A stretch of DNA of 64,000 nucleotides, taken from positions 124,001 to 188,000 of the forward strand of contig JABCZH010000009.1 of assembly GCA_013289795.1 (NCBI GenBank), given 5' to 3'. The notes beneath the pieces were generated by a model. The model made no database searches. It was not told the DNA's origin and worked only from the letters and a program-made list of their open reading frames with translations. The stretch is from Acidobacteriota bacterium. GTDB lineage: Bacteria; Acidobacteriota; Terriglobia; Terriglobales; Acidobacteriaceae. The translations under genes were made by a program, and so were the position numbers. This document shows positions 56,675-60,215 of the stretch, one piece after another (position 1 is the first letter of the stretch; each line of letters opens with the position of its first letter).

Positions 56675-57757
56675 ATGACCGGCGCAAAGCTGAAAGTTGC
56701 GGTGCTGTACGACGTCTGGGAAGACGAAGCAGCCGCGGCCGAAGCGGCCGAGGAGAAGGCATCCTCAAAGAAGAAAAAGAAGAAGAAAAAACCGCAGAGC
56801 AAGAGCAAGCGAGAGAAAGAAGACCGCGAAGAGATCTTCGAAGCGCTGGAAAAACTGGGACATGAACCGTTTTATCAAGTCCTGGATGGGACCCAACCCT
56901 GTCTCACAGCCTTGGCCAAGTGTGGATCCGACCTGGTGTTCAATCTGACGGAAGCCTTTGCCGGCGACGACACCAAAGAGATGAATGTCGCCGCCTACAT
57001 GGACCTGCTGGGGATCCGCTACACCGGCGGCGGACCGCATGCGCATTTTCTGGCTCAGGACAAAGCGACAGCCAAGAAAATGTTTGCGTTTCACGGCATC
57101 AAGACGCCTTTCTTTGCAACCGCCTACCGTGGACGCATCGAACATGCGCACGATGTATCGTTCCCGCTGATCGTGAAGCCGCTGTGGGAGGACGGGTCGA
57201 TCGGCATCGATGCGGAATCCGTGGTGAGCAGCGTAAAAGAGCTGATGGAGCGGGTGGAGTACATCCAGAATGAGTTTGATTCGCCGGCGCTGATCGAGGA
57301 ATACATTGAAGGCCGCGAAATGTACGTGGGAGTTCTGGGCAGCTATGAGAAGGCTCAGGCGCTGCCGCTGGTGGAGTTGGATTTGTCGCGGCTGCCGGAA
57401 GGCACTCCGAAGATTGCCAGCTACGATGTGAAATTCGAGAAAGACACCCAGGCACACAAGCTGACTAAATCCTATCTAGTCGACGACCTGGATGAGAAGA
57501 CCACCGCCCGTGTGCAGGAAGTTGGCCTCGCTGCCTACCAGGCGGTCAAGTTGCGCGACTACGGGCGCATCGACATGCGGCTGACGCCGAAGGGCGAGGT
57601 TTACGTGATTGAGGCCAATCCAAACCCGTGGCTATCGAGTAAGCAGGAGTTCGCCATGGCAGCCAAAGCGTCGGGGCGCTCGTACACCGATCTCATCGGC
57701 GAGATTGTGGAACTGGCAATGGCGAGATATGCCGCGAACACCGAGAATGCGACCTAG
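56675..57757 (+). CDS. D-alanine-D-alanine-ligase-like ATP-grasp protein with Lys-rich insertion
   Basis: 360 residues. The N-terminal domain VAVLYDVWEDE is followed by an unusual 30-residue insertion rich in Ala, Glu and then Lys (about residues 16-47, including eight lysines in a row). Substrate lid, ATP-grasp fold (FPLIVKPLWEDGSIGID, ALIEEYIEGREMYVGVLG) and metal site (GRIDMRLTPKGEVYVIEANPNPW) are intact. It should join a carboxylate to an amine using ATP. Whether it is a true D-Ala ligase is doubtful because of its partner peptidase and C-terminal context. Confidence 0.85.
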   Translation: MTGAKLKVAVLYDVWEDEAAAAEAAEEKASSKKKKKKKKPQSKSKREKEDREEIFEALEKLGHEPFYQVLDGTQPCLTALAKCGSDLVFNLTEAFAGDDTKEMNVAAYMDLLGIRYTGGGPHAHFLAQDKATAKKMFAFHGIKTPFFATAYRGRIEHAHDVSFPLIVKPLWEDGSIGIDAESVVSSVKELMERVEYIQNEFDSPALIEEYIEGREMYVGVLGSYEKAQALPLVELDLSRLPEGTPKIASYDVKFEKDTQAHKLTKSYLVDDLDEKTTARVQEVGLAAYQAVKLRDYGRIDMRLTPKGEVYVIEANPNPWLSSKQEFAMAAKASGRSYTDLIGEIVELAMARYAANTENAT

Positions 57758-58067: not shown

Positions 58068-58076
58068 GCAACTTGA
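58068..58076. repeat. left target-site duplication
   Basis: GCAACTTGA, identical to 60207-60215 on the other side of the element. Confidence 0.85.
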
Positions 58077-58100
58077 GGTAATTATCCCTTGTCACCAAGG
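58077..58100. repeat. left terminal inverted repeat
   Basis: Starts GGTAATTATCCCTTG and matches the complement of 60183-60206 at 23 of 24 bases (T against A at position 16). Confidence 0.88.
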
Positions 58101-58245
58101 ACGTACAAAAATCGGGCCGGGAACCAGCGAAAACACTAGGGAGAACCCAAAGTCACAGGTTGTGGAAAAGTGGGGAGTAATCTAGCGATTTTTGAGCCAG
58201 CATGATAGTCATGGAGCGTGGACGAAAGCAAAAATCAGGGTTGTC

Positions 58246-58563
58246 TTAGTTTAGTGGGCCTTTTGGAATCCATTCTTTCAGAAGCCGCAATGCCTCGCCT
58301 TGGTCTGAAGCAAGCATATCGACTATCTGAGGAAGTTTGGCCAGAAGGGCTTGATACGATTCTCGGCTCGCAGCATTTATCCTCGGCATCATCGTCGGTC
58401 GCGCCTTCGCTACGATGTCTTCCGTCTCCGTCTCGTTAAAACCTTTAGCCTTACAGGCAGCGGCAAAAAGTGTTTGGTAAAGCATTAACTCGCGCTGCAA
58501 GACTTCGGCTGTGTCAACGAATGCTTCCAGAAGCTTAGTGAGTGTGTCCTTGTCGATCTCCAT
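58246..58563 (-). CDS. transposon passenger: hypothetical helical protein
   Basis: 105 residues, ATG 58563. Soluble, mostly alpha-helical, Ala/Leu/Glu-rich (MEIDKDTLTKLLEAFVDTAEVLQREL). Not recognised. It lies 11 bases behind the SieB-like gene, so probably co-expressed with it, and could be its partner. Confidence 0.65.
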   Translation of the reverse strand: MEIDKDTLTKLLEAFVDTAEVLQRELMLYQTLFAAACKAKGFNETETEDIVAKARPTMMPRINAASRESYQALLAKLPQIVDMLASDQGEALRLLKEWIPKGPLN

Positions 58564-58574
58564 AACGCCGCGAA

Positions 58575-59090
58575 TTATACGCTCACTCCTTCGCCTGAAA
58601 TGATTTCGTTGTCAATGGAATAAAGACGGGGGTGCTTTCTGAAATAACGAAATGCCCACGATTTGATCGTGAAAAAAGAATCGCCGCGTTTTACTTTGAG
58701 ATTATTCGTATTTGGGACTTCCGCTACTTCGAGCACCCCGAGTCGCACTAACGCGACAGCAGCGGGCGCACTGGAAATGAGTCCAGTGGTTCTCTGATTC
58801 CATTTCATAAAAGAGAGGATCACGCGCCTCTCATCTCCAGGTAAGTCTTGAAAATGTCGAAGCAGAGAAATTCTACGAGCAAACCATTGTAGGACTATTC
58901 CTAAGAGATAAGATGCGGCAAAGATGAAGCAGCCCCACTCCATCGTCCTATGCGCTTTAATCCAGACATCGGTATCCGAGTAAGGGGCAAAGAGAGCGAT
59001 GGCCGAGAGCAAGACAACCGAAACCATGAGCTTCCACGGATTCTTGAAAATTCCTAATACCGTTTGTAGTAATTGAATCCAAGGATTCAT
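58575..59090 (-). CDS. transposon passenger: SieB-like superinfection exclusion protein
   Basis: 171 residues, ATG 59090 with GCGGGA upstream. Two transmembrane helices (about residues 20-37 and 52-70) are followed by a basic soluble domain with FFTIKSWAFRYFRKHPRLY. The helix arrangement, the size, and this I..WA..Y..KHP ending resemble SieB of lambdoid phages, which blocks superinfection by other phages. The match is by eye and partial. Part of the IS1595-type element. Confidence 0.55.
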   Translation of the reverse strand: MNPWIQLLQTVLGIFKNPWKLMVSVVLLSAIALFAPYSDTDVWIKAHRTMEWGCFIFAASYLLGIVLQWFARRISLLRHFQDLPGDERRVILSFMKWNQRTTGLISSAPAAVALVRLGVLEVAEVPNTNNLKVKRGDSFFTIKSWAFRYFRKHPRLYSIDNEIISGEGVSV

Positions 59091-59097
59091 TCCCGCT

Positions 59098-59125
59098 TTG
59101 ACCGCGGGCGAACTCCTGCTATGAT
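59098..59125 (+). promoter_or_regulatory. strong candidate promoter inside the transposon, directed into the transposase 3' end
   Basis: TTGACC at 59098-59103 and TATGAT at 59120-59125, spaced 16 bases, with an extended -10 (TGC before TATGAT). It points rightward, away from the SieB-like gene and toward the end of the leftward transposase gene. Confidence 0.5.
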
Positions 59126-59159
59126 TCGCTTGGAGTCGCCCGACGCCTCCACTTGTGAA

Positions 59160-59366
59160 ATGGCTCCTCGCTCCAAACCGTCCAAGGCAGTGAGCGAACA
59201 GCCTCCATTCACCGAGTCAGATTTTTTTACTCTTGTAAAGCGGGCGTGCGAGACACCATCTCGCTCGCCCGTTCCAACAAAGCGCAGAAAATCAGGTTCC
59301 CGGAGTCCCGTCGGTTATACCGGAAAGAGTACTCGTCCAAGTAGGACTGCAAATATTTCTGACTGA
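59160..59366 (+). CDS. possible small protein overlapping the transposase 3' end
   Basis: 68 residues from ATG 59160, 34 bases behind the promoter at 59098. The first ~35 residues (MAPRSKPSKAVSEQPPFTESDFFTLV) look like a real N-terminus, while the rest is antisense to the transposase gene and of low complexity. Short proteins with a similar FTE-DF motif occur by IS1595 elements in my recollection. Could be an antisense RNA only. Confidence 0.3.
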   Translation: MAPRSKPSKAVSEQPPFTESDFFTLVKRACETPSRSPVPTKRRKSGSRSPVGYTGKSTRPSRTANISD

Positions 59367-60159
59367 CGGAGTGGTACACGCCGCCGATTCCACGCTTCAC
59401 CAAACTCCAGAATCCTTCGATGGTGTTGGTGTGCACGTCACCAGAGACGTAGATTTTCGCGCTGTGATTGATGCGCCGATGCAGGTATCCCATGCCTTCG
59501 ACTTGCGGCAGTTGCGTGTAGATCGCGGCTTCGTCGGTGAAGATCATGGTTTCTGGCAGCACGCATTCCTTGACCAGTTCGGTCGCGGTCGCTCTCGTTA
59601 GATCGTTGGTTGCTCGGGCCATAATCTTGCCCTTGCGCTCCACGATGCCGAATACCGAACTGAGTTTGTTCAGATCGCCGCGCAGTCGTCTGCCGGATTC
59701 ATTCTTCCGCCGTCCGCCTTGATACATCTCATCCATTTCGACTTCCCCGCCGAGCTTCACCGATTCCCCCATGAGCTTGCGGATTTGATGGAACATGCGC
59801 CACGCGGTTTTGTAAGTGACGCCTGTCTCGCGTTGTATCTGCTTCGCGGAGATTCCGCAACGAGTGGAACCCATGAGGTACATAGCGTAGAACCACAAGC
59901 GCAGCGACGTGCTGGTTTTCTCGAAGATAGTTCCGGCGAGCGGGAAGATGTGATTGCCGCACTCGGCGCAAGCATAGGCCGTGCGTCCCTTGACGCGGTA
60001 GTGCTTGCGTGGCGCGTCGCACTTCTCACAGAAGGTGACGCCGCCGGGGAAGCGTTGCTCCTTGATCTGCTCTAAGCAGGCGTCGTCATCGGGGAAACGG
60101 CGGTGGAATTGCTCAACGGTGTAGCGGAGTTCCTTGGGAATGGTCTGTCGGCGGTTCAT
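59227..60159 (-). CDS. IS1595-family (ISXO2-like) transposase
   Basis: 310 residues. N-terminal zinc ribbon (CEKC...CAECG), helix-turn-helix (SAKQIQRETGVTYKTAWRMF) and DDE-type catalytic domain: Asp in EVEMDEMYQGG, Asp in MIFTDEAAIY and Glu in HTNTIEGFWSLVKRG. The C-terminus (SYLDEYSFRYNRR) is typical of the family. Intact, so potentially active. ATG start 60159, 48 bases inside the right terminal repeat. Confidence 0.93.
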   Translation of the reverse strand: MNRRQTIPKELRYTVEQFHRRFPDDDACLEQIKEQRFPGGVTFCEKCDAPRKHYRVKGRTAYACAECGNHIFPLAGTIFEKTSTSLRLWFYAMYLMGSTRCGISAKQIQRETGVTYKTAWRMFHQIRKLMGESVKLGGEVEMDEMYQGGRRKNESGRRLRGDLNKLSSVFGIVERKGKIMARATNDLTRATATELVKECVLPETMIFTDEAAIYTQLPQVEGMGYLHRRINHSAKIYVSGDVHTNTIEGFWSLVKRGIGGVYHSVSQKYLQSYLDEYSFRYNRRDSGNLIFCALLERASEMVSRTPALQE

Positions 60160-60182
60160 GCAAACAGTATGCCATTTGTTCT

Positions 60183-60206
60183 CCTTGGTGTCAAGGGATA
60201 ATTACC
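60183..60206. repeat. right terminal inverted repeat
   Basis: Ends GGGATAATTACC, complement of the left repeat with one mismatch. Confidence 0.88.
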
Positions 60207-60215
60207 GCAACTTGA
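60207..60215. repeat. right target-site duplication
   Basis: GCAACTTGA, second copy of 58068-58076. Confidence 0.85.

Follow-up and report, generated by a model that had tools for sequence, protein, structure and literature searches.

A likely SieB-family passenger gene in an IS1595-family transposon of an Acidobacteriota genome, and the cargo slot of related elements

A 64,000-nucleotide stretch of an Acidobacteriota genome (hereafter the window) contains a small IS1595-family element, in which the transposase gene is accompanied by two passenger ORFs. A preliminary description of the locus noted a resemblance of one passenger to SieB, which has been studied so far as a gene of lambdoid prophages. 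The locus thus raises the question of whether the element is a mobile phage-resistance unit. That passenger genes occur in the IS1595 family is already established; such elements were reportedly treated as 'transporter IS' by Siguier, Gagnevin and Chandler in 2009.

Anatomy of the element

The element spans positions 58077-60206 of the window (~2.1 kb), with intact ends, a target duplication and a transposase. Its features are as follows:

58068..58076, left copy of the 9-bp target-site duplication, GCAACTTGA (from the sequence)
58077..58101, + strand, cargo-side terminal inverted repeat, GGTAATTATCCCTTGTCACCAAGGA (from the sequence); the -35-like TTGACA is lost at this side
58246..58563, - strand, second passenger, an ATG ORF of 105 aa, predicted soluble
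58575..59090, - strand, first passenger, likely SieB-family protein of 171 aa (PF14163, AF2 model, Foldseek, IS-borne relatives)
59025..59027, - strand, ATG codon of Met22 within the SieB-like gene, close to the P22 Esc-start column, with GGAAG 4 nt ahead; a speculative start
59227..60159, - strand, IS1595-family transposase of 310 aa, with zinc ribbon and ISXO2-like DDE domain (PF12760, PF12762, NF033547)
60166..60194, - strand, promoter-like site of the transposase: TTGACA (within the terminal repeat), 17 nt, TG-CATACT
60182..60206, - strand, transposase-side terminal inverted repeat, GGTAATTATCCCTTGACACCAAGGA as read on the - strand (from the sequence)
60207..60215, right copy of the target-site duplication, GCAACTTGA (from the sequence)

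The ends are inverted repeats of the form GGTAATTATCCCTTG[A/T]CACCAAGGA, identical at 24 of 25 positions; the inverted ends given in the preliminary description were correct, and their length is to be amended from 24 bp to 25 bp with one mismatch. A search with 17 bp of the end, allowing up to 3 mismatches, returned 2 sites in the 64-kb window, which are exactly the two ends (0.06 matches expected from shuffled windows). The flanking duplication is perfect and has the length of 9 bp given earlier. The transposase frame contains no stops, and its matches to PF12762 (127 bits, 7.1e-37), PF12760 (zinc ribbon, 35.7 bits) and NF033547 (194.5 bits, 2.1e-57) all exceed the cut-offs. Both passenger ORFs lie on the same strand as the transposase, and the 105-aa ORF starts 11 nt past the stop codon of the SieB-like gene. 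The earlier account of a complete IS1595-family element with an intact transposase and two passengers is therefore borne out. The intact frame and ends suggest that the element could be active in transposition.

The element is present in one copy in the 4.67-Mb assembly, which contains two further matches to IS1595-type transposases, including a fragment. Its neighbours, identified by eye, are genes for an ATP-grasp protein and an ADOP-type permease, and no prophage genes were seen adjoining the element. The ATP-grasp gene (window 56675-57757) appears D-Ala-D-Ala ligase-like by eye, and several consecutive lysine codons (KKKKKKKK) lie close to its start. In the search for an empty site, the two flanks matched relatives separately, and no relative spanned the junction. 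The cargo looks foreign, because its GC content is 49%, compared with 56% for the transposase and 58% for the window.

The passenger genes and their relatives

The 171-aa passenger matched the Pfam SieB family (PF14163) with 26.2 bits (E 6.8e-6), a marginal score barely above the curated cut-off of 26. The profile thereby confirms a resemblance that had previously been noted by eye. It gave no match of note in PADLOC, PHROGs or NCBIfam. Because the PF14163 score is marginal, independent support was sought. Hydropathy analysis showed hydrophobic segments at residues 21-39 and 53-71, and in an AF2 model (9-row alignment, mean pLDDT 79) two short helices at the N-terminus are followed by a long third one and a small alpha/beta domain, in agreement with the earlier designation as a two-helix membrane protein and with the two N-terminal helices of P22 SieB. 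The C-terminal domain is winged-helix-like in the model, and a fold search of the PDB returned only weak MarR-like winged-helix matches.

The best Foldseek match in a viral structure library was Q38660 of phage P22 (195 aa), with a probability of 1.00 but an E value of 0.02. Q38660 derives from the P22 N operon, where the stretch around sieB contains a single ORF of 120 aa or more, namely the sieB frame (annotated length 192 aa); Q38660 is probably SieB of P22, the two lengths differing by three residues. Alignment with P22 SieB showed shared blocks at the N-terminus (MN..W), just past helix 1 (P.S....WI..H) and within the C-terminal domain (L..GI). Identity to relatives is 22-30%. In PF14163, P22 SieB scored 101 bits, and two relatives from genomes of the class, carried by other IS1595-family elements, scored 38.8 bits (178 aa) and 75 bits (203 aa). 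With the window protein as the query, these two IS-borne proteins ranked at the top of a small set (E about 1e-12 and 2e-9). Taken together, the profile, predicted fold, P22 alignment and better-scoring relatives make membership of the SieB family likely, though not certain. A tblastn search of phage and plasmid records found no relatives of the SieB-like protein, and neither passenger was found in the viral contigs searched.

The 105-aa ORF contains no hydrophobic segment. It had no family match in Pfam, PADLOC, PHROGs or NCBIfam, and no relatives in 200 genomes of the order, phages, plasmids or viral contigs. We regard it as probably, not surely, a gene, because 39 of 5000 shuffled versions of the stretch contained an ATG ORF of this length. 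A SieB gene outside any IS (L114:3887-4829, genome G787) is followed 4 nt on by a 119-aa ORF, which bears no evident likeness to the 105-aa ORF.

In P22, Esc starts at Met25 within sieB. Met22 of the window protein lies near the corresponding alignment column, preceded by GGAAG, and a Met is present in the Esc-start region of all three IS-borne copies (the window and genomes G036 and G488), with a strong GGAGG in G488. From these start-site features, the IS-borne genes may encode an Esc-like product.

The two other IS-borne copies lie in elements with clear boundaries. In G036 (L091:3269-5691), 30-bp ends and a perfect 8-bp duplication (CTTAAGGT) enclose an IS1595 transposase and a SieB gene. 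In G488 (L105:450-3814), the ends are 26 bp, the 8-bp duplication (AGCACGCT) is perfect, and an IS1595 transposase is present together with a PIN protein, its partner and a SieB gene. The two transposases are 35-41% identical to that of the window and to each other, and the ends of the three elements are unrelated; the three SieB-bearing elements therefore belong to separate lineages. A partner resembling the 105-aa ORF is absent beside the other two IS-borne SieB genes.

The frequency of this association was estimated from the 13 genomes with SieB hits, which amount to about 67 Mb and have 37 matches to IS1595 transposases. The probability of a SieB gene lying by chance within 3.5 kb of an IS1595 transposase is about 0.4%. 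Among the genomes of the class, 2 of the 12 SieB hits other than that of the window lie inside delineated IS1595-family elements, as against about 0.05 expected near one (Poisson P about 0.001). In a tree of SieB proteins, the window and G036 proteins pair with support of 95/95, and the IS-borne trio was recovered in 71% of bootstraps; the three may share one origin or represent separate captures. Two further loci were considered and rejected. In G610, a SieB fragment adjoins an IS1595 transposase, but an IS end probably lies between them. In G042 (L007), the SieB gene has no IS beside it; its neighbour is, by eye, a gene for an OLD-like ATPase.

The cargo slot of related elements

Both ends and a target duplication were delineated for 46 elements (45 relatives and the window element), of which 44 are longer than 1.7 kb. 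When the window element was aligned to relatives by BLASTN, the matches started at the transposase-side end and covered part or all of the transposase (positions 1 to 999 at most); none fell in the cargo. Close transposase relatives thus have in common about 1 kb (end and transposase), followed downstream by unrelated DNA. This shows one cargo slot downstream of the transposase, whose contents are exchangeable between close relatives. The preliminary description had proposed looking for the same element elsewhere, and had named unrelated passengers across copies, together with the lack of a SieB-family match, as evidence against its reading. Close copies do carry unrelated passengers, and the SieB-family match was obtained; we do not count the former as a refutation, because swappable cargo is part of the design of this group.

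A -35-like TTGAC is present at the transposase-side end in 46 of 46 elements and at the cargo-side end in 5 of 46, indicating that the two ends are functionally unlike. This distribution is in line with a transposase promoter inside the terminal repeat. Target duplications in the relatives are mostly 8 bp (n = 33), less often 9 bp (n = 11), and in a single case 7 bp. Those sharing the 9-bp duplication of the window element (L011-L014, L017, L020, L021, L042, L044, L050 and L087) include many of its nearest relatives.

Most of the cargo in the relatives has no recognised function. Among the recognisable genes are a zeta toxin (L018, by its sequence), MazF/PemK (L048), RelA/SpoT corresponding to the PADLOC candidate PDC-S33 (L041:2841-4112, 5.8e-124), a PDC-S42 match (L045:7044-7958, 9.6e-96) in an element that also contains an N6/N4 methylase, and a trypsin-like protein matching PDC-S45 (L040:5867-6994, 1e-11), with a second trypsin-like protein named by eye in L125. 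Members of the 8xMP and DUF3800 families also occur. Near relatives of the window transposase (L011, L014, L016/L017) are associated with small two-helix membrane proteins. A PIN-domain gene with a partner of 270-310 aa is the cargo in three elements (L038:2779-4108, L105:1226-2733 and L126:1284-2757), the PIN assignment being confirmed by Pfam for L105 and made by eye for L038 and L126; L105 contains both the PIN pair and a SieB gene.

The commonest cargo is an unannotated family found at 19 loci in several phyla (L022, L026, L027, L030, L037, L039, L042, L044, L046 with two copies, L048, L050, L052-L055, L060, L063, L071 and L087), with the motifs H-N-[LIM]-R-[SA]-[AS]-[LM]-D-H and D-K-H-[RQ]. 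It had no Pfam or PADLOC match. Its model is helical and weakly HEPN-like, and R-x4-H is present; the motif and the weak fold matches are a hint that the family is HEPN-like. The large ORFs that flank these elements, taken as a comparison (n = 79), matched 142 Pfam families, of which those shown are mostly metabolic or housekeeping. The cargo sets contained spurious ORFs, and 'defence-leaning' is used here as a description of the slot, not as a statistic.

Function of the cargo and comparison with known systems

The best explanation, in which we place middling confidence, is that this IS1595-family 'transporter IS', with its SieB-family gene and small partner, may act as a mobile phage-exclusion unit. 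SieB of P22 shuts down macromolecular synthesis partway through an infection by related phages (PMC10883804), and Esc, an in-frame product of the sieB gene, inhibits SieB (PMC10002423, PMC3224144). By analogy, the SieB-like protein would reside in the inner membrane through its two N-terminal helices, with the C-terminal domain in the cytoplasm, and would halt cellular macromolecular synthesis midway through infection by a susceptible phage. The infection would then abort, so that the population, and the transposon with it, would survive. Self-restraint might be provided, speculatively, by a shorter Esc-like product from Met22 or by the 105-aa partner. In favour of an exclusion unit, we count the toxin and defence-candidate families in the cargo of relatives, set against flanking host ORFs that are mostly housekeeping. 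Against it count the marginal Pfam score, the low identity, the lack of a notable PADLOC, PHROGs or NCBIfam match, the largely unrecognised cargo of relatives, and the partner, an orphan not conserved with other SieB genes. The different cargo of the closest transposase relatives also counts against it, and would be compatible with a mainly self-serving or neutral slot.

Alternatively, the SieB-like protein could be a toxin held in check by the 105-aa partner or by an Esc-like product from an internal start, and would then act mainly to retain the transposon in the genome or in the population, not to block phages. Inhibition of P22 SieB by its own in-frame product, the closely spaced two-gene layout, the Met shared by all three IS-borne copies and the toxin-type cargo of relatives (zeta, MazF, PIN, RelA/SpoT) are consistent with such addiction. 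Yet the 105-aa ORF has no similarity to known antitoxins, the other two IS-borne SieB genes lack it, and an internal Met is common in hydrophobic stretches; on balance, we consider this account unlikely.

We likewise think it improbable that the passenger is a chance acquisition maintained without selection, a small membrane protein that has the SieB fold but serves some other role or none. The marginal profile score, the unrelated slot contents of the nearest relatives and the single copy in the genome would suit passive cargo, but the reading frames are intact, and SieB genes recur in three IS1595-family elements with unrelated ends, well above the expected number. An IS that merely landed beside a SieB gene of the host or of an older prophage, as the G610 arrangement might suggest, is very improbable and is refuted for the window, because inverted ends and perfect duplications enclose the SieB gene there, as in G036 and G488, and no prophage genes were seen beside the window element.

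More broadly, the widespread IS1595-family group with GGTAATTATCCC ends, found in Acidobacteriota, Chloroflexota, Actinomycetota and others, might work as a one-slot shuttle, in which individual genes for phage defence or toxins (SieB, RelA/SpoT, zeta, MazF, PIN pairs and the candidate HEPN-like family) have been loaded time and again downstream of the transposase. We put this forward tentatively, somewhat short of an even chance. If true, IS elements of about 2 kb would be the smallest mobile defence islands, and could be mined for new defence systems. The elements are short, recognisable by their ends (GGYAANTATCCC) and mostly contain one or two cargo genes, offering a simple filter for new defence or toxin genes. 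Transposons of this kind may thus be small vehicles by which phage resistance spreads.

The literature searched, which did not cover the 2009 IS1595 and tISCpe8 papers, contained no IS1595 elements with defence cargo, and within it the SieB cargo and the toxin- and defence-leaning slot appear new. Transporter IS of the IS1595 family include tISCpe8, a lincomycin-resistance element, and MTnSag1 (both cited in PMC5704250). The window element resembles these in its DDE transposase with zinc ribbon, inverted ends, target duplication and passenger beside the transposase. It differs in its cargo, since the passengers named in the literature covered are resistance or mobilisation genes, whereas the window element carries a SieB-family gene; its subclade also differs in its 9-bp duplication from the mostly 8-bp IS1595 relatives measured here. 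IS66-family tIS elements, such as ISPa75 with fosZ (PMC12888890), similarly place a passenger gene downstream of a DDE transposase, but the transposase family is another and the cargo confers drug resistance. The PADLOC candidates PDC-S33, PDC-S42 and PDC-S45 are cargo of related IS1595-group elements; they are absent from the window cargo, and are themselves candidates only.

The window protein shares with P22 and lambda SieB the family profile, length, two N-terminal hydrophobic helices, a C-terminal domain and an internal Met near the Esc start. The sequences are about 20% identical, and the window copy has no known antisense control region and is followed by a 105-aa partner. SieB in P22 and lambda is a lambdoid prophage gene, whereas in the window it is the cargo of a bacterial transposon. 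Its likely presence on separate IS1595-family transposons would provide a second, prophage-free route by which phage exclusion may spread in Acidobacteriota.
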